NCBI GenBank assembly: GCA_015232315.1
Contig: JADFZZ010000002.1
Span: forward strand, 1 to 64,000
Origin: SAR324 cluster bacterium
GTDB taxonomy: Bacteria > SAR324 > NAC60-12
Direction of reading: 5' to 3'
DNA: 64,000 nt
In this document: positions 24,532 through 34,540 of the stretch, in pieces
Position numbering within the stretch: the stretch's first letter is position 1
Layout: each line of letters starts with the position of its first letter
Program-made: the position numbers and the translations under genes
The notes under the pieces: model-generated
Told to the model about the DNA's origin: nothing
What the model saw: only the letters and a program-made list of their open reading frames with translations
The model's database searches: none

Positions 24532-25617
24532 CTATGAAGCTTTCTGTTGGGACTCGAAAGGCAGGGAAACAAAGATGCCAGAATGATAGGCTTGTTTGAT
24601 TTCATTCAAATACAAGAGCAACGGCGCATGGTTCCGTGCCAGGAAATATCCCAGAGACAACATCCGGTAAAGATGCTGGGGTTTTCGAGTCAAAGAACGG
24701 AGTTTGGTGGATTTTAACGGGGCAATGACAATCGCTTTTTCCGCCTGAACTTCATGACGAATCAAGGCCATGTTGCGGAAATACAACTGATTGTACTCTT
24801 CAAACAGGCGATGGTATCCCGGCGGAAACAAACCGGCTTCGTCAATACCGCGCCATTCTTTGGGAATCCATTGCATGGTTTTCGCGATTTTTTTATCAAT
24901 GTTCGCAAATAACGGATACGTTTTGCTGGGCATACGATCCAGTGACTCCGTCAGTAGATAGATTTTCCGCACAGATTCTTCTGGTTCATGTCCTCTTTTC
25001 AAGCGAAGATCCAACGCTTCTGCGGACAAAGCAAACGGAGAGCCGAATTGTCCATCCGCAAACCGCTCCTTATCCGCCTCCAGTTTGAGTTTTACAGGGT
25101 TGGACAAAATGGGCGGAGACATGGCCGCCTGCATCGATTTCCACGGAAACTTCGCCGACTGGAACATATACGTTTCAGTCCGTTCATGCTCCTGATTGCT
25201 GATGATGTGCGTGTCGCCTGTCTGCGTGTTCACCACCGGATAATAAAACTCCGGTGTCCCGGTTTTCAGAGTATCCAGATCATGGCACAGAATCTTGTGC
25301 ATCATTTTCACAATAGCCTTTGTGTTCAGATAGCCTTTGTGAGGACGATTCCTTTTCAGCTTGAGCACATGGGGATCTGTCAGAATATCAAATATGGTAT
25401 GTGTCTGATCCATGTGATCAAACAGAAAGAACAATCCGACAGGAATTCCCGCTGAAGAAGCTCTGATCCGGCTCACAAACTCACGTGCCGGTAAATTACC
25501 CAGGTATTCACGGATAAACATCAACGCCCCGACCGAAAAGGCGACCTGATACGCGCCACCTTCCAAAACCAACTCTATTTTTGGCAGGGACTCCCTGCCT
25601 GAACTATATTTTTTCAT
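24532..25617 (-). CDS. Patatin-like phospholipase with altered motifs
   Basis: This 361-residue protein has the patatin layout: glycine-rich loop LVLEGGAYQVAFSVGAL, nucleophile elbow RASSAGIP (Ser55 in ASSAG instead of GxSxG) and the dyad aspartate Asp188 in FADGQ. These residues would form the Ser-Asp dyad of a lipid acyl hydrolase. The first elbow glycine is replaced by alanine and the oxyanion loop by GGAYQ, so activity could be altered. It lies just downstream of, and on the same strand as, the OlsF-like lipid synthase gene, across a hairpin repeat. Confidence 0.75.
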   Translation of the reverse strand: MKKYSSGRESLPKIELVLEGGAYQVAFSVGALMFIREYLGNLPAREFVSRIRASSAGIPVGLFFLFDHMDQTHTIFDILTDPHVLKLKRNRPHKGYLNTKAIVKMMHKILCHDLDTLKTGTPEFYYPVVNTQTGDTHIISNQEHERTETYMFQSAKFPWKSMQAAMSPPILSNPVKLKLEADKERFADGQFGSPFALSAEALDLRLKRGHEPEESVRKIYLLTESLDRMPSKTYPLFANIDKKIAKTMQWIPKEWRGIDEAGLFPPGYHRLFEEYNQLYFRNMALIRHEVQAEKAIVIAPLKSTKLRSLTRKPQHLYRMLSLGYFLARNHAPLLLYLNEIKQAYHSGIFVSLPFESQQKAS

Positions 25618-25647
25618 AAGCACTTTCTGATCCCCATTCTCAGGTCT

Positions 25648-25676
25648 GTAGAGACGTGCGAATCATGCGTCTCTAC
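25648..25676. repeat. Dispersed hairpin repeat, second copy
   Basis: gtagagacg and cgtctctac form a 9-bp stem with an 11-base loop. The stem is identical to that at 17398-17425. It sits between the OlsF-like and patatin genes. Confidence 0.75.
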
Positions 25677-25733
25677 GCGTGCCTGACAAAGAAGGTTTTT
25701 AAAAAATTTTACAGGTTATTCTTTTCACTTTCA

Positions 25734-27611
25734 TTATCCGGCTTTTTCGTTGGAATCAGGATACATTCCATGTTGTGCGGCATAGTGATAGTAGCCCTCC
25801 GCACCCATGAATTTTCTGAGCAGAGCAAGATCCGCATTCAGCAGATCCACAACAATCAACCCATCAATGACATTCGAAAAATCCTTATCCACATTGAAAC
25901 TGACAAAGCGGGCGTTGAATTTGAGATAGTGCCTGATCAACACCGGAATCCCCTTGCCGTCATTTTCCATTTCAGACACCAGCACAGACATGTCTTCCAG
26001 ATCATTGGCGATATGTTTCATCACGGGCTTGTCCTTCATTCTGGCCAGTCCACCCATCCGGTAAGGATTGCGTGGTTTGACCCCCGAAGACAGACTGGAG
26101 TCCTTGAGATTTTTCTGGAAAAACCGCACCATCAAACGCTTGGAAATGGCATGGTAATTCTGACTGATGCTGACAGGCCCAAACAATTGGGTGTATTGCG
26201 GATGTCGGACAATGAATTCGCCAATCCCTTTCCAGAGCAGGGCCAGACTGTTGGGTTTGCGTTGATATTCTGAACGGATGAACGAACGGCCCAATTCGAT
26301 GGAATTCTTCAATTGGCCAACAAACTGCGGTTTGAATCGGAACAGGGTGTTGGTGTACAATCCACGTATGCCGTATTGACGACAAATCGCGTCTGTCAAG
26401 CCAAGACGGTAGGCACCCACCAGCTCAGAAGTTTTATGATTCCACATGAACAGATGCATGTAATAGGCATCAAATTCATCCAGATCCAGTTTCCGGCCTG
26501 TGCCTTCACCCACTTCCCGAAACGTCACTTCCCGCAACCGGCCAATTTCTGTCAGGATGTCTTTGATCTGATAGGCCCAGGCATAATAAACCGTGAATTC
26601 TCCATGTTGCAGCAGTTTTTGTGTCACTGGCAGATGTTCCAGTTCCAACACCATCTTGTGGGTTTCAACCGCGGAAATTACAGATTCAGGCGTCAGCTCT
26701 TTTGCTTTGGGCATGGTAAAAAACGCTTTTTTTGCTGAAGGCTCCTGAATTCGGTTTTTCAGGAAGTAGGTTTTGGCTCGTAGATAAAGCGTCATTTCAG
26801 CATCATCCTTGTCCACCAGTTTTTTCCATGGAATAGGATGTCCGGCAAAAACAGGCAGGGTTTTTCCAGCTTTGTTCAGAAGTTCCCGGGGCAACAGCAT
26901 GGTTCTCAGCCAGGGATGAATTTTTCCCAGAACTTGAAACAACAAACTGTTTTTTCCTGAAAAAAACACGGGCAGCACGGTTGCTTCCGAACGTCGAACC
27001 AGGGAGGCAATGTGTTGATGCCACTCCGCATCTTCCAGTTTGCCGGTATTCCATTGAAAATGAGATACTTCCCCGGCCGGGAACGTGATCAACGCACCAC
27101 CCTGACGAAGCCATTTGATCGAATCTTTGAGACCCGCGATATTTTTAAAGGAGGTATTTTTTCCGCCAAAGGGGTTCACTGGAATAACTTGTGCGGAAAG
27201 TTCCGGAATGCCCTGAAGAATGGAATTGGCCAATATCTTCACATCGGGGCGGACCATCTGAAGAATTCTTCCCAGAATAATGCCATCCACTCCGCCAAAC
27301 GGATGATTGGCCACAATCACCAGGGGACCACTGGCCGGAATTTTCTGCAGATCTTCTTTGGAAAAGGAATAATCAATCATGAGACGATCCAGGCAAACCT
27401 GAAAAAAGTTTTCCTGATTGATATGATGAAACACTTCCTGATAGGCTTGATTGACTCTGTCCAGTGACAACCATTTTTCCAGGCGTCCACTGAGCCAGGT
27501 CAGCCATGAGTTTTTTTGAAAAACAGGTTGCATCTCACCGAGATCAATCAATTTCGCAATTGATTTTTCCTGGTCAAGAACCTGGGTTAATTCGTATGCG
27601 GGGTAACTCAT
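25734..27611 (-). CDS. Bifunctional acyltransferase, OlsF-type aminolipid synthase
   Basis: The 625-residue protein fuses an N-terminal PlsC-like lysophospholipid acyltransferase domain (about 60-290, His103 in NHPFGGVDG, FPAGEVS) to a C-terminal GNAT-like N-acyltransferase domain of the OlsB/hemolysin type (about 340-560, YYMHLFMWNHKTSELVGAYR, IELGRSFI). OlsF proteins with this order make ornithine lipids from ornithine, and relatives make other aminolipids. The product would be a phosphorus-free membrane lipid. ATG 27611 follows a tggaga site and is preferred over 27635. Call: olsF-like, substrate unproven. Confidence 0.8.
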   Translation of the reverse strand: MSYPAYELTQVLDQEKSIAKLIDLGEMQPVFQKNSWLTWLSGRLEKWLSLDRVNQAYQEVFHHINQENFFQVCLDRLMIDYSFSKEDLQKIPASGPLVIVANHPFGGVDGIILGRILQMVRPDVKILANSILQGIPELSAQVIPVNPFGGKNTSFKNIAGLKDSIKWLRQGGALITFPAGEVSHFQWNTGKLEDAEWHQHIASLVRRSEATVLPVFFSGKNSLLFQVLGKIHPWLRTMLLPRELLNKAGKTLPVFAGHPIPWKKLVDKDDAEMTLYLRAKTYFLKNRIQEPSAKKAFFTMPKAKELTPESVISAVETHKMVLELEHLPVTQKLLQHGEFTVYYAWAYQIKDILTEIGRLREVTFREVGEGTGRKLDLDEFDAYYMHLFMWNHKTSELVGAYRLGLTDAICRQYGIRGLYTNTLFRFKPQFVGQLKNSIELGRSFIRSEYQRKPNSLALLWKGIGEFIVRHPQYTQLFGPVSISQNYHAISKRLMVRFFQKNLKDSSLSSGVKPRNPYRMGGLARMKDKPVMKHIANDLEDMSVLVSEMENDGKGIPVLIRHYLKFNARFVSFNVDKDFSNVIDGLIVVDLLNADLALLRKFMGAEGYYHYAAQHGMYPDSNEKAG

Positions 27612-27769
27612 ACACTCTCCAGATAAGGGGATCAAGCATCATGACAAACCGATGTATGTCCTGATCATAGGGTGAGAGTGTCATAGTTCTATGATGAGAC
27701 TGTTAAACTTCTGTCAGAAAGAGAGGAGAGAAACGCGGGCAACCTGCCACAAGCCATGGCAGGTTGAAA

Positions 27770-29266
27770 TCAAAAGGAAACTTTGAGTTCCATTTTTCCT
27801 GAAACAAACGTGGTTTCTTTCAGGGCAACATAGGTGGGACTGACGACCGATTCCAGGCCATCCGCGATTTTCCATTTGAGGACTGGCGCGAAAATTTGCC
27901 GGAGGGTTTCTCCGTCACTGTTCTGATAGGAGGCAAACAGGATGGTTGTCCCCAGAGCATCGCCGGGGAAAAAGGACGCGCTCACATGCCCGGACACAAA
28001 ATTGGTCACTTCCTCAGACTGCCCCATCAACGCATTGGTTTGAAGAAAAAGAGGGGTTGAATCATTCCAGTCGCTCACCAGCAATTGGCCGACATACAGA
28101 TTAACAATCGCGGAGGAAATATAAAATTCAGCGCCGGTCACAACCTTCTGCCAGTTGTTTTTGATGAACGGATCATCCCCGTTTTCGTCTTCTGTCTGAT
28201 TGTTCACATACGCCAGTTTGAGCAACGCGCTGCCGCTATTGTACTGCACGTCCAATCCCGGACTTTTCAGAGAGTGCCAGGTTCGTTGACTGGCCTCATT
28301 GTCATCCACCATCACATCCGCAACAGGATCAAGCCCTTGAACATAGCTCAAGGCCATGTCCAGATTTCCCTGTGTGAATGAATAACGCAGGGCAACCTGC
28401 TGTCGATCGGAGTGAGCTTCGGGCAATTGATCGGGTAACAGATAGTAATAGTCCGCATAAGCCGGATCAATATTGACTTTGGCCATCGGAATGTAGAGGA
28501 CGTCCAGAAAGCTGAAATCACCAACATACTGTTTTAGTAAAATACCGGTGCTCGCCATTTTGCTATCTTCAAATTCAGTGCTACTGAATGCCATGTTCCT
28601 GGAATTGATGCGGTCGGTGGGCACTTCAAGTCCTTCCATGAAGCCCCAGGTGATCAGTTGATTTCCGATTTTCCAGGTCCGACTGCCGTCAAACACTTCT
28701 ATGAAGGCCTCAACCATCCGGATTGCTGTCCGGGATGCGTCATCATCGGTGACATCATTGTATTCCACATTGACTGCCGTAAACAAACGGGCGGTATCGC
28801 CCAGAAAACCTTCCAGCTTAAGCTGCATGCGGGCACCAACATCGGTGAACTGATTCTCATCCTGATGAGCCGGAGCATTCAGTCCCTGAACTTTCATGGC
28901 CTGAAACCTGGCCCAAAGATCATCCGCATAATGGGTGCTGTTCCAATACATCAAGGGTTTCAGATAGCCATTGACCATGAGAGAATGGTTATCCTCTTCC
29001 AGGGAGGCACCTGTCTCAGTGGCGGCCTCCGAACTCAGGGAATCACTTTGAGGCGCGGAACTGTCAGACAGGTCTTCCAGTCCTCCATTTTCTGGACTGT
29101 CGGCAAGCCCTGACAAATCGTCCAGTATCCCGGCCTCTGTTGTCGCGGATTGCACTGCGTCGTCACTGTTTTCTGCCAGACCGGATAACTCCTCAAGATC
29201 CGCGGCCAGTGGATGATAAATCCACACCACGAACAGGAATGCCACCATCATAATTTTGCGAATCAT
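27770..29266 (-). CDS. Outer-membrane beta-barrel protein with N-terminal acidic motif repeats
   Basis: This 498-residue protein has a signal peptide (cleavage after HPLAA), an acidic, serine-rich mature N-terminus with three related motifs (LEELSGLAENS 24-34, LDDLSGLADS 48-57, LEDLSDSS 63-70), and a C-terminal region of alternating beta strands ending in phenylalanine (MELKVSF), as in DUF1302-like porins. It should be the outer-membrane component of the RND/LolA-like operon. It is the last gene of the set, 41 bases after the LolA-like gene. The N-terminal motif also occurs in the RND protein. Confidence 0.75.
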   Translation of the reverse strand: MIRKIMMVAFLFVVWIYHPLAADLEELSGLAENSDDAVQSATTEAGILDDLSGLADSPENGGLEDLSDSSAPQSDSLSSEAATETGASLEEDNHSLMVNGYLKPLMYWNSTHYADDLWARFQAMKVQGLNAPAHQDENQFTDVGARMQLKLEGFLGDTARLFTAVNVEYNDVTDDDASRTAIRMVEAFIEVFDGSRTWKIGNQLITWGFMEGLEVPTDRINSRNMAFSSTEFEDSKMASTGILLKQYVGDFSFLDVLYIPMAKVNIDPAYADYYYLLPDQLPEAHSDRQQVALRYSFTQGNLDMALSYVQGLDPVADVMVDDNEASQRTWHSLKSPGLDVQYNSGSALLKLAYVNNQTEDENGDDPFIKNNWQKVVTGAEFYISSAIVNLYVGQLLVSDWNDSTPLFLQTNALMGQSEEVTNFVSGHVSASFFPGDALGTTILFASYQNSDGETLRQIFAPVLKWKIADGLESVVSPTYVALKETTFVSGKMELKVSF

Positions 29267-29307
29267 CGTTCCTCATGAATTGAGAGTGGGAAAGGAATCA
29301 GTGAAAC

Positions 29308-30168
29308 TTACCACCATTTTCGGGTCAGATACTGAAGATTGAAAATGGACGGATCAACCTTGTCCGCTTCCTGTTCCACATCAAAGCGGTCAATTTCCAT
29401 AACGGTTTTGGTGCCCTTGATCACGTTTTTCATTTCAAAGCCGCCCGGTACAAAAATTTTCTGGTCATCGCGGTTTTTCTTGACCAGGAATGACAGCAAC
29501 TGCATCTGCTTGTATAATTGTCCTTGCAGATTATAGATTTCGCCCTTGAACACCAGTCCGGAGCGAGGATCCATCCAGATGATGGTTTTGCTGTAGCCGT
29601 AATCGTCCTTGTTCTGCTGACTTTTGAATTCGCTCTGGATTTTTTCAACTTGCAGGGATTTGCCTTTGAAATTCACAGTGTCGGTTCCAAGCCATGTATA
29701 GTTGTAATCATTGATATCCCGTGCGGCCATATCTCCATTGGAAAAATCAGAACCCATGAAGGAGGAGCTTTTGTCAGAACCAATGACCCGTTTGGGTTTG
29801 CGGAGTCCTTTGAGATAGATCCACTGATCATCGTCAGCACCTTCCTGTTCAATCATGAGTGCGCTGTTGCCCTGATCATCAGCCGGAAAATAGAAGTAAC
29901 TGATAGCACGACTCAAGCGTTTTTGCGGGTCCTTATAATTTTCATGGAAATTGGCGGATCGGGCTTTTTTGGTGAAAATCAACTGTTCCTGGGAATCATA
30001 GATCTTGAACACATTTTCACTGAGTGTTTTTTCAAAAGCCGGAAGTTTGTCCACGGCTTCCATAATGGCCCGGCCTTTTTCTTCTGGTGTTTCTGCCCTC
30101 ACAGGGTTCAGGCTGGTTCCCAAAAACAGAATACAGGCAATGCTTCCCAACAATAATTTTTGTTTCAT
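29308..30168 (-). CDS. LolA-like outer-membrane lipoprotein-sorting family protein
   Basis: The 286-residue protein has a signal peptide (LLLGSIACILFLGTSL) and a LolA/LolB-like half-barrel pattern (GRAIMEAVD at the start, later WIYLKGLRKPKRVIG, GSDFSNGD, DPRSGLVFKGEIYN). Proteins of this family sit next to MMPL-type RND exporters and are thought to carry lipids across the periplasm. ATG 30168 follows an aaggag site, so the upstream 28 codons of open frame are not used. Confidence 0.85.
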   Translation of the reverse strand: MKQKLLLGSIACILFLGTSLNPVRAETPEEKGRAIMEAVDKLPAFEKTLSENVFKIYDSQEQLIFTKKARSANFHENYKDPQKRLSRAISYFYFPADDQGNSALMIEQEGADDDQWIYLKGLRKPKRVIGSDKSSSFMGSDFSNGDMAARDINDYNYTWLGTDTVNFKGKSLQVEKIQSEFKSQQNKDDYGYSKTIIWMDPRSGLVFKGEIYNLQGQLYKQMQLLSFLVKKNRDDQKIFVPGGFEMKNVIKGTKTVMEIDRFDVEQEADKVDPSIFNLQYLTRKWW

Positions 30169-30258
30169 GGTGTGCTCCTTGGATGATTGGTTGTTCCCGA
30201 TTTGAATCACAGAAATGACGGTCAGGTATCGGGCCCGGTCCTGACCGGTCATGCCTCT

Positions 30259-33200
30259 TTAATGCTTTGTTTTGTTGTCAATCTGATTTTTTTCCATTTC
30301 AAAAAACCTGGGTTTTAACACCAGAATCAACGCTGGCAACAGCGTCATCGCCCCCAGAGAACTGTAAATCATGGTTCCAGCCATCAGGGCTCCCATGGCG
30401 ATATTGGCCACAAACGCTGAAGCGATCAACACCAGAAACCCCACAGCCACAGACACCGCATTGATCAGAATCGCCTTGCCCGAAGAGTGAATGGTGTTGA
30501 AATAGGCGTGTTCCAGATCATCCCCCTGACGCAACTGGGTCTTGAATCGTTCCAGAAAATGGATGGTGTAATCCACACCAATCCCAATGGAGATGGAAGC
30601 CACCATCATGGTTCCCGTATTGATTTTCCAGCCCAGCAAATAAATCATGCCGAAATTCGCCAGAACTGTAAAAAAGAGGGGAATGATGGCAAATAGCCCA
30701 CCGACCAGCGACCGGAAAATAAAAAATGTGACCGCGAAAACAAACACAAAAGACCATGCGATACTTTTTGCCTGGGAAGTGCTGATCACGTTGGTGACTT
30801 CGGTAATGGTTGGCGCATAGCCGGCCACACGGACATCGGCAATATAAGGATCATTGGCTGGAAACAGTTTTTTAAGACCTTCCCGGATCTGTGTTTCATA
30901 ATCCATGATAAACGCGCTGCTGCCATCCCGTGTGAGAATCGACATCTGGAATTCTTTCAGATCCGGTGTGACCATGCCTTCAAACGTATCCCGATTGGCA
31001 TTCAAGGCCTGATTCAGCAACACACCGGTAATTCCCCGATCGGTCAAGGTTGGATCCGCGATGTTGTCTGTTTCCACATTGGGCAGACGTTCATAAGTGG
31101 GGTCATCGTCATGGTAAAACACCCGATAGAATTTTCTGACCAGATCCACCGGACTCACCACAAAACCTGTGGGTTGCATGACGTGTCCCTCGATTGTGAT
31201 GGAAGGAGAGGTCATGGCTTCAGCAAATTCCTGCATTTTCTGAATCTTATGCAGCACCTGAGTCTGGGTCAGATCCGCTACAAAAAAATCATGCAACTGA
31301 TTGAACGCCCGTTGTAATTTGAGGGCTGATTCTTCCTGTTTGTGTTGTCGAAGCTGAATCACAGCGGAGGCGGTGCTTTCCCATGTTTCCTGAGTCAGCC
31401 CCAACTGTTGATGAATCTCCTTCAATCCGGCAAGCTGTTCCGACGAAAGATCTTCATAAGGTCCTTTTTCCACCGTTGCGCTTGTTTCAGTGGAATCAGC
31501 CAACCCCATCAGATCGTCCAGACCGCCGCCGCTGTTTGTAGCCGTATTTTCCTCAGAAGAAACGCCCATCAGTTCATCCAGTGCATTGGCTTCTTCCGAG
31601 GTCAGCTCCTTCTGCTGTTTTTCCTTGGTGGTTCCAGTTTCTTCAGGAGTGACCGCAACAGCATATTCTTCGTTAAGCACATGTCCGGTGACTTCCATAA
31701 TCTGTTTGATCCCGGCCTGGTTTTTTACGGGGTCCTTCACCAGTTCAGTCAGCGAATGTATCTGGTCATTCAGCGGGGAATAATTGCTTTCAGGAGTTGC
31801 CTTCACAAAGGCGTCCCATGCGGAATTCAACCGCTGAACCGCGACCGTGAGTGACTCGATCGCCTCAGGATGATCAATGAGAACTTCCGGACGAAACCGG
31901 AACAGAAGATTGACCAGTCCGGTTCCACTCAATTTACGATTGATGAAGACATCACTTTGCTTGATGGGGTTGTCGTCCTTGAAATTGGACATCTGTCCGC
32001 CTTCATATTTCAGTTGGGGCATCACAAGTGCGGAGGCGATCATGAGCACTACGAAACCCGCAATGAACGCTTTGGGATGTTTGACGACCAGTGCCGCCCA
32101 GGCATGCATCAGCTTGTCAATGGCGTGGCCTTCCGCATGAACGTTGTCCCGTTTCAAGGCTTTTGTTTTCTGTGGGATTTTCCACCATGTCAAAATGGCG
32201 GGACTGAATGTGAGCGACAGGAATAGCGCACCCGCAACGCCCACCGCCGCAAAAATCCCGAACTGTTGAATAAGGGTCAGATCGGACGAAACAAGAGAGA
32301 GAAATCCGGCAACAGTGGTGGCTCCTGCCATAAGGATCGCAACACCCACATGCTCAACGGTGATCTGCAGAACTTTTTTACGGTCTTTGGAATAGTGAAT
32401 ATCTTCATAATAGCGGTTGAGCAGGTGAATCCCATAGGCGGTGCCCGTCGCCAGCAGCACAATGGGCAACATCGAAGATATGGCGGTGACTGGCACATGA
32501 GCCATCGCCATACAGCCCAAGGCCCAGATCATGGAAATGATCACCGTTATCATGGGAATGAATACCCCGACCGCTGTCCGGAAACTCAGCAGAAGAATGA
32601 AAAAGATGAGCACAATGGCCACGGGCATCAACATTCCCATATCCTTGCCGATCATGTGGGCAAAAATCGCGGTCACGACGGGTGCTCCGGCTATATGAAA
32701 TTTTAGGCCCGGAACCGCATGTTTCCTGATAATTTCCTGTGTCTGTTCATAAATCAGATTCAGATCATAAATATCCTTGACGTTGTATAACTTGAACTCC
32801 AGATTTTCACGACTCAACGCGTCAATGTTTTCCAGTGAAAATTCATACAGATTGGTGGTGAAATTCTCCCAGGTATACATCTCAGGATGCAGGAAGAAAT
32901 TCCGGCTTTCCACATAACTCATGAGGTCATCAAATTTTTCCAGAGTGAGTTCGCCGGATAACAGTTCCTGAAGACGTGGATGTTCCTCGAACGTGCTGGA
33001 TAAATAGCCGGTCAGGTGCTTTTTCAGAATACGCCGCATGGTTTGTGTATGCTCTGAGATAAAAGCATCATCATAGGTGGTCAGGCCATATTTTTTACCA
33101 TACACGTCAAAGGGAAACACACTGTCCCGGCCCATGTAGCGGTTTTTCAGTTTTTCCGCGTCAATGGCGGTTTCCAGTTCCAGCAGGGCAAAACGCCGTT

Positions 33201-33852
33201 TGTAATCCCACTTGCGCAGCATCTGGACCTGAATGGACGTGGCGGTCAGGTCTTCGGAAATCAAACTTCCCCGGGTGGTGCGGTCATTCAGCAAATGGGC
33301 CTGCAACCCGGGAATGATTTTTTTCAGATCCTCCTCCGACTCAGGCAACAGTTCTTCCGTTTGATCCGTAAAGGGAATGCCCAGTTCTTTTTTCAGTTTT
33401 GTGATCACACTGCCTGAAATGACAGAACCGGTTTCCTTGTCCAGAATGGCATCTTCAAGATTGGCGATGCTCCGGATATTTTCCTGATCAATTCCCATCG
33501 GCAGGGTGAGGGTTTCAGTTTTTCCGGTGAGCAGGCTCTGAATGGTTTTGGTGCCCTTGAGCCCCTTGATATCCTCAATAATTGCTTCCATCGCCCGTAG
33601 CACGTCAGGTTGCATGACGGTTCCACCAGGCATTTCAAGACCAATCATCAGGGCTTCCTGATAATTGAAATTCTTTTTGTAATAATCATTGGCTTTGGTC
33701 GTGGGCATGCTCTTGGGCAGGAATTTGGTCATATCCGCTTCCATATACAACCGGGTTTTGATCTGATACATCATGAACGCGGTGATGCCAATCACGACCA
33801 CCACCACCAGGCCCGGAAACCTGGTACTGAAACGACCTAAATATTTCATCAT
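30259..33852 (-). CDS. MMPL/RND superfamily exporter with motif-bearing periplasmic loop
   Basis: This 1197-residue protein has the two-fold RND layout: helix 1, a large periplasmic loop, five helices with MMPL motifs (LLSFRTAVGVFIPMI, ATGTAYGIHLLNRYYE), then a second half with another large loop and IGIGVDYTIHFLERF. It resembles HpnN/MmpL lipid exporters but is longer. The second loop (about residues 650-1010) includes an acidic stretch with LDELMGV (758-764) and LDDLMGLADS (778-787), matching motifs in the barrel protein. It is the first structural gene after tetR and is likely repressed by it. Confidence 0.88.
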   Translation of the reverse strand: MMKYLGRFSTRFPGLVVVVVIGITAFMMYQIKTRLYMEADMTKFLPKSMPTTKANDYYKKNFNYQEALMIGLEMPGGTVMQPDVLRAMEAIIEDIKGLKGTKTIQSLLTGKTETLTLPMGIDQENIRSIANLEDAILDKETGSVISGSVITKLKKELGIPFTDQTEELLPESEEDLKKIIPGLQAHLLNDRTTRGSLISEDLTATSIQVQMLRKWDYKRRFALLELETAIDAEKLKNRYMGRDSVFPFDVYGKKYGLTTYDDAFISEHTQTMRRILKKHLTGYLSSTFEEHPRLQELLSGELTLEKFDDLMSYVESRNFFLHPEMYTWENFTTNLYEFSLENIDALSRENLEFKLYNVKDIYDLNLIYEQTQEIIRKHAVPGLKFHIAGAPVVTAIFAHMIGKDMGMLMPVAIVLIFFILLLSFRTAVGVFIPMITVIISMIWALGCMAMAHVPVTAISSMLPIVLLATGTAYGIHLLNRYYEDIHYSKDRKKVLQITVEHVGVAILMAGATTVAGFLSLVSSDLTLIQQFGIFAAVGVAGALFLSLTFSPAILTWWKIPQKTKALKRDNVHAEGHAIDKLMHAWAALVVKHPKAFIAGFVVLMIASALVMPQLKYEGGQMSNFKDDNPIKQSDVFINRKLSGTGLVNLLFRFRPEVLIDHPEAIESLTVAVQRLNSAWDAFVKATPESNYSPLNDQIHSLTELVKDPVKNQAGIKQIMEVTGHVLNEEYAVAVTPEETGTTKEKQQKELTSEEANALDELMGVSSEENTATNSGGGLDDLMGLADSTETSATVEKGPYEDLSSEQLAGLKEIHQQLGLTQETWESTASAVIQLRQHKQEESALKLQRAFNQLHDFFVADLTQTQVLHKIQKMQEFAEAMTSPSITIEGHVMQPTGFVVSPVDLVRKFYRVFYHDDDPTYERLPNVETDNIADPTLTDRGITGVLLNQALNANRDTFEGMVTPDLKEFQMSILTRDGSSAFIMDYETQIREGLKKLFPANDPYIADVRVAGYAPTITEVTNVISTSQAKSIAWSFVFVFAVTFFIFRSLVGGLFAIIPLFFTVLANFGMIYLLGWKINTGTMMVASISIGIGVDYTIHFLERFKTQLRQGDDLEHAYFNTIHSSGKAILINAVSVAVGFLVLIASAFVANIAMGALMAGTMIYSSLGAMTLLPALILVLKPRFFEMEKNQIDNKTKH

Positions 33853-33943: not shown

Positions 33944-34507
33944 TTACTGGCGCAGCCCGCCGAAAATCAGTTCAAACAAATCCCTCACTTCCTGTTCAAT
34001 TTCCGCAGAATCCATTTCCAGCCAGCGCAAAATAAACTGAAACTGAATTTTTTCAATCATCACAGCGTTTTTATGGTGATCTGCCTTACGAAAAAGCCCT
34101 TCAGTTTCCCCCTCCTCCAGCAGTTGTTGAATGTCATGGATCGCTTCCTGTTTTTTGTTTGAAAGTTTGACGTGGGTGTCAATCATTTCCTCAAAGACGA
34201 CCCGGGACATGGAGTATTGCAGGATCAACCCCTTGATGTGTCCAAGTTTACAGAGCAAAAGCCGAATCAATTTCTGTTCAGCGTTTTTCTCAGCTTTCAG
34301 AACTTTTTTCAATTGTTCACGAATGCTTTGATAATCCTGTTCCGCACAGCGGATAAACAGAGCTTCCTTGTTATCAAAATAATTATAGACGGTGCCTTTA
34401 CCAACGCCTGCGTCATGAGCGATTTCCTCAACATTGGCTTTTTTAAAACCATATCTGAAAAAATGCTCCCGCGCCGCATTCAGTATCTGTGTTTCTTTCG
34501 GTAACAC
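33944..34507 (-). CDS. TetR-family transcriptional regulator
   Basis: The 187-residue protein has a clear TetR helix-turn-helix near the N-terminus (ILNAAREHFFRYGFKKANVEEI, GVGKGTVYNYFDNKEALF) and an all-helical ligand domain. I set the start at GTG 34507, which a gaaggag site precedes by 8 bases. A longer frame to 34537 has no such site. It sits 91 bases upstream of the RND gene on the same strand. Matching inverted repeats before both genes suggest that it represses itself and the exporter operon. Confidence 0.88.
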   Translation of the reverse strand: MLPKETQILNAAREHFFRYGFKKANVEEIAHDAGVGKGTVYNYFDNKEALFIRCAEQDYQSIREQLKKVLKAEKNAEQKLIRLLLCKLGHIKGLILQYSMSRVVFEEMIDTHVKLSNKKQEAIHDIQQLLEEGETEGLFRKADHHKNAVMIEKIQFQFILRWLEMDSAEIEQEVRDLFELIFGGLRQ

Positions 34508-34540
34508 CAGAAAAACTCCTTCAAAAACATGCACCAAAAA

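Follow-up and report, generated by a model that had tools for sequence, protein, structure and literature searches.

Without a TolC-type conduit, how do MMPL/HAE3-type RND pumps of Gram-negative bacteria move hydrophobic cargo through the periplasm and on to the outer membrane? The question is raised by a gene cluster in the window analyzed here, a stretch of 64,000 nucleotides from a SAR324 cluster bacterium (contig JADFZZ010000002.1), in which four genes follow one another on the minus strand:

33944..34537, minus strand: TetR-family regulator (PF00440), upstream of the pump gene
30259..33852, minus strand: MMPL/HAE3-type RND pump, 1197 aa (PF03176 MMPL, 190 bits)
29308..30252, minus strand: LolA_like periplasmic protein, 314 aa, with a signal peptide (PF17131, 138 bits)
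27770..29266, minus strand: outer-membrane barrel protein, 498 aa (profile homology to barrels of a second phylum)

The pump matches the MMPL model PF03176 with 190.4 bits against a gathering score of 20.5, and the HAE3 model TIGR00921 is its top NCBIfam model despite a score (237.9 bits) that lies under the curated cut-off of 351.9 bits. The LolA_like protein scores 138.1 bits with PF17131 (gathering score 30) and has solved relatives in PDB 9tp6, 3bk5, and 4z48; the first of these, titled “Outer membrane lipoprotein-sorting protein,” is the solved structure that the LolA-like proteins match most closely (E 1.4e-66). For the window barrel, Pfam yields no match even at E 1, and hence none to DUF1302 (PF06980), a family that does match the barrels of related operons in genomes G005 and G086. 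AlphaFold models from a two-row alignment reached pLDDT values of 28 and 32 for the mature barrel and the LolA-like protein, too low for use. Several of the homologous second-phylum operons, as read by eye, likewise have TetR-like genes upstream. Downstream of the barrel on the same strand (24532-27635), lie genes for an acyltransferase/GNAT fusion of 633 aa and, as a weak match, a patatin-like protein, neighbors that hint at lipid metabolism.

The sequence-only reading of this stretch had drawn attention to a short motif common to the pump and the barrel, and the five copies that it named are all present in the two proteins. The motif can be written as L[DE][DE]LxGLA[DE], with two full copies and one degenerate copy in the barrel:

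29165..29197, minus strand: barrel tag 1, LEELSGLAENS, residues 24-34, at the mature N-terminus; conserved in 12 of 12 orthologues
29096..29125, minus strand: barrel tag 2, LDDLSGLADS, residues 48-57; from the sequence and a genome pattern search
29057..29080, minus strand: degenerate barrel tag 3, LEDLSDSS, residues 63-70; from the sequence
31561..31581, minus strand: degenerate pump tag, LDELMGV, residues 758-764; from the sequence
31492..31521, minus strand: pump tag, LDDLMGLADS, residues 778-787; from the sequence and a genome pattern search
31395..31665 (approximate ends), minus strand: disordered acidic insert in periplasmic loop 2 of the pump; from the orthologue alignment

The pump motifs follow TM7 (about residues 596-614) and precede the next segment of strong hydrophobicity (about residue 1049), which by RND architecture places them in periplasmic loop 2. 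The window cluster thus displays what we term matched tags, namely, the same tag at the mature N-terminus of the barrel and in a periplasmic insert of the pump.

Members of the barrel family, some of them distant, are found in 10 of the 52 genomes of the class (E below 1e-20). The motif recurs in the orthologous SAR324 operons, in barrels and pump inserts alike, so that the check on orthologues proposed in the sequence-only reading speaks in favor of the shared motif. In all 12 close SAR324 barrels, it directly follows the signal peptide, at about mature position +1 (DLEELSGLAEN, DDFDDLAGLAD, DSLDDLSGLSD, and DDLDELSELSD, among others), and across these orthologues two leucines are invariant in the tag, followed by a nonconserved linker. 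Two more distant barrels of the same family, encoded beside ABC-transporter-like genes and not an RND pump, are without the tag. The orthologous pumps carry in loop 2 a variable acidic insert with versions such as DDLGGLSDD, FSDLGDLADS, and LDDLGDLGDD. A position-specific matrix built from the barrel N-termini alone, when run on 13 such inserts, beat composition-preserving shuffles in every one of them (p 0.00005-0.018 each). In genome G032, where the pump gene lies on a different contig from the LolA and barrel genes, both tags are kept (DDDLSVLDELAE and GGLDDLDDLDILAED), though the pump is only 39% identical. Two further SAR324 pumps, L106 (G051:C18) and L051 (G050:C338), have an acidic tag-like insert with no adjoining barrel and, in the case of L106, no adjoining LolA gene; their partners would have to be encoded elsewhere.

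Outside these operons the tags are close to absent. A degenerate DNA pattern for [LF][DE][DE][LF]x[GDE][LF][AS][DE] has three matches in the whole 5.25-Mb genome (G000), two of them at the N-terminus of the barrel and the third in the pump insert, as opposed to none for a reversed control pattern. With a looser pattern across the 52 genomes of the class, 19 matches were obtained in the nine system-carrying genomes, 14 of them (by our own count) in the barrel or pump genes of the operon; of the remaining five, the four that were looked at belong to reading frames unrelated to it. Genomes without the system mostly have one match or none, with a maximum of three.

A second phylum, which is probably Spirochaetota, also has homologous tagged RND-LolA-barrel operons. 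Profile comparison shows its barrels to be homologous to those of SAR324 (hhalign, 98.9%), and the loop-2 insert occupies the homologous site in the pumps of both phyla, between the end of a conserved helix and a YEIP/ERLP ((Y)xxLP) segment. The tags of the second phylum are of other types (SFFEE, DSFFDD, DDWGS, DFGxF, and PPLGF[DE], with LLGDF in pump loop 1), and they occupy the same two places and are matched within the operon. Given with the barrel first and the pump second, the pairs include QELSFFEEG and PFSFFEEEG; SLGDFGFDDEE and DFGDFGNFEEE; QDSFFDDSN and VDSFFDDED; QDFDDWGSF and WDDWGSDFG; and DDFGSDFG and DDFGSDDFG. In two larger sets, the barrel version QEDFSFFDT is matched by SLSFFSDD and SLFFFDSS in the pump, and QQPPPLGFD is matched by two copies of PPLGFE. 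The tag of one pump (G396) resides in periplasmic loop 1, not loop 2, yet it is matched (DDLLGDFGS / SELLGDFDT, DVLGDFDT); in this pump (L161, G396:C43), the loop-1 tag, at residues about 118-165, stands ahead of an apparent extra inserted domain. Tags differ even between the operons of one genome. The idea that the inner- and outer-membrane partners have a motif in common is therefore strongly supported, with the amendment that what they share is a lineage-specific matched sequence and not one conserved motif.

For one of these tags a genome-wide count gave the same picture: in the 2.2-Mb genome G471, PPLGF[DE] has three matches, always in the pump insert or the barrel N-terminus. A longer DDWGS-type pattern has its sole exact match in G461 at the barrel N-terminus and did not reach the pump copies, so that it carries no information on matching, and in a two-mismatch search for unlinked DFGxF-tagged barrels the matches were swamped by background. 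A complete 1.1-Mb genome (G429) encodes an RND pump with a DDFGVF tag in loop 2 (L151, G429:C1) beside a LolA-like gene, with no barrel adjoining the two. This genome is presumably that of Treponema pallidum or a near relative. In the literature, TP0790 has been modeled as an AcrB orthologue (PMC8407342). If TP0790 is the L151 pump, its MMPL/LolA context suggests a role other than an AcrB-like one.

Within-operon matching was also assessed across lineages. For nine lineage representatives, four of which come from one family by our reading and are hence not fully independent, the summed tag-to-insert score is higher for the true pairing than for any other of the 362,880 that are possible, the test being restricted to the pump insert and 14-residue tags. 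An earlier version with the whole pump sequence and 24-residue tags was too weak to resolve the matching, and the pairing score discriminates weakly between two tag types that co-occur in G501 and G388. Shuffle tests on single operons gave moderate results (p 0.0015-0.4).

The arrangement is not a general property of such cassettes. RND-LolA-barrel operons sampled in other phyla are mostly devoid of both the insert and the tag: the pumps have about 770-830 aa and no insert, and no more than about ten residues separate the signal peptide from the start of the barrel. Four operons (L155, L157, L203, and one in G005) have an acidic barrel tail with no matching pump tag, which argues for a receptor of the tail that is distinct from the pump copy. 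In G005, locus L055:3430-5067 (G005:C70) encodes a DUF1302 barrel with about four tandem DxDLLDDGSSED-type repeats at its mature N-terminus; the accompanying pump lacks a matching insert. At another locus of this genome (L245:5144-8488, G005:C14), a single 1115-aa ORF joins an RND pump (about 59-829) to a LolA-like domain (868-1114) and is followed by a barrel-like gene; no tag was seen in the pump part. One operon (L045) has no LolA gene beside its pump and barrel.

Between lineages the tag sequence changes, yet within the operon it stays matched, so that a single site most likely binds both copies; selection by one shared binding site would make two copies in different proteins drift in parallel in this way. 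We propose that one docking peptide, displayed by pump and barrel alike, is recognized by a shared receptor cognate to the operon, for which the LolA-like shuttle is the best candidate, a reading of the sequence evidence to which we give a probability of about one-half. Each export system would carry one short docking tag twice, in the periplasmic insert of the pump and on the flexible N-terminus of the barrel, and both copies would bind one site on the same receptor. As to the order of hand-over, which like the receptor and the cargo we infer, the LolA-like shuttle might take up a lipid or another hydrophobic cargo while docked on the pump tag and release it once docked on the barrel tag. General periplasmic factors such as BAM, SurA, and Lol are unlikely to read the tag, as in the genomes tested it does not occur outside the operon, and one genome can have operons with different tags. 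In contrast, the LolA-like protein is encoded in the operon with a tag that is unique genome-wide, is fused to RND pumps elsewhere, and has a fold that shuttles hydrophobic cargo. We also considered its charge as a sign of an acidic-tag receptor and dropped this line, as its pI is not clearly more basic in tagged operons (medians of 9.0 and 9.4 versus 8.7 in others). Where paralogous lipid-export routes coexist in one cell, the duplicated, operon-specific tags might even constitute a general addressing code of the periplasm that is read by the cognate LolA-like shuttle and drifts together, thereby insulating one route from another; we offer this extension only tentatively.

The most durable alternative places the common receptor in the pump itself: the porter domain would bind the tag, its site being occupied by the pump's own copy until the two proteins meet and the barrel tag displaces that copy. 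This would account both for the location of the pump copy beside the porter domain and for the barrels that keep their tail where the pump has no copy. It nevertheless appears unlikely, given that the RND-LolA fusions indicate LolA as a direct partner of the pump. Of the two explanations offered in the sequence-only reading, a common binding partner or homotypic assembly, we find the former to be better. In homotypic assembly the pump tag would pair with the barrel tag, like with like, and bridge the membranes directly, and the identity of the two copies is the simplest demand of such pairing; several tags are, moreover, aromatic low-complexity repeats (DFGDFG and SFFEE). However, the tags are short, almost every tag segment is acidic, so that two of them would repel each other, and the four operons whose barrels retain the tail while the pump has no copy do not fit tag-to-tag assembly, making it distinctly improbable and favoring a common partner.

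A chance origin fares worse still. Acidic, disordered linkers under the same compositional bias could come to match without any function, both segments are indeed acidic and of low complexity, and the single-operon shuffles are only moderate. Against this stand the genome-wide uniqueness of the tags in G000 and G471, their fixed N-terminal position across the 12 orthologues, the 1-in-362,880 pairing, and the 13 of 13 inserts below p 0.02, by which this very improbable explanation is already largely refuted. Recent gene conversion of the linker between neighboring genes, conceivable where the genes adjoin, as they do in most operons, was rejected as scarcely credible because the codons agree at only about half of the positions where the tag residues are identical, which argues that the match is held at the protein level, and because the tags also match across contigs in G032.

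With a shared receptor such as the LolA-like shuttle as the preferred reading, matched tags on the pump and the barrel suggest an unrecognized way to link export machinery across the periplasm. From sequence, they would allow a pump to be assigned to its shuttle and barrel and unlinked partners to be predicted, and short peptides would suffice for a direct test of the docking step. We found no description of matched tags of this kind in the open-access literature searched.

The nearest described cassette is AmeABCD of Castellaniella defragrans, with the HAE3-type RND protein AmeD, the LolA-superfamily protein AmeB, and the DUF1302 outer-membrane protein AmeA (PMC6394551). It is of the same kind, i.e., an HAE3/MMPL pump with a periplasmic LolA-superfamily protein and an outer-membrane barrel, and the passages on it considered here make no mention of matched tags. 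AmeD has 787 aa versus 1197 aa in the window pump, and the window cluster departs from an AmeABCD-type cassette in two features: its barrel lacks any Pfam match in place of DUF1302, and no AmeC-like gene was seen between the pump, LolA, and barrel genes. The HpnN and MmpL exporters, which are solved RND relatives, share the subfamily architecture of the window pump; unlike it, they have no long tagged insert evident from the matches. To our knowledge, they also have no tagged barrel partner. In Thalassolituus, the MMPL protein TOL_3187 is fused to a LolA-like domain and has been linked to growth on long-chain alkanes (PMC6304351). It resembles the window system in its direct pump-LolA linkage and differs in being a fusion, whereas the window encodes separate proteins.

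In the Lol pathway (LolCDE-LolA-LolB), a periplasmic shuttle with the LolA fold connects a donor in the inner membrane with an acceptor in the outer membrane. The window system is akin to it in having a LolA-fold shuttle that would link such a donor to such an acceptor. Unlike in Lol, the donor is a proton-driven RND pump and the acceptor is a barrel, and recognition would be achieved by the matched tags that the two present.
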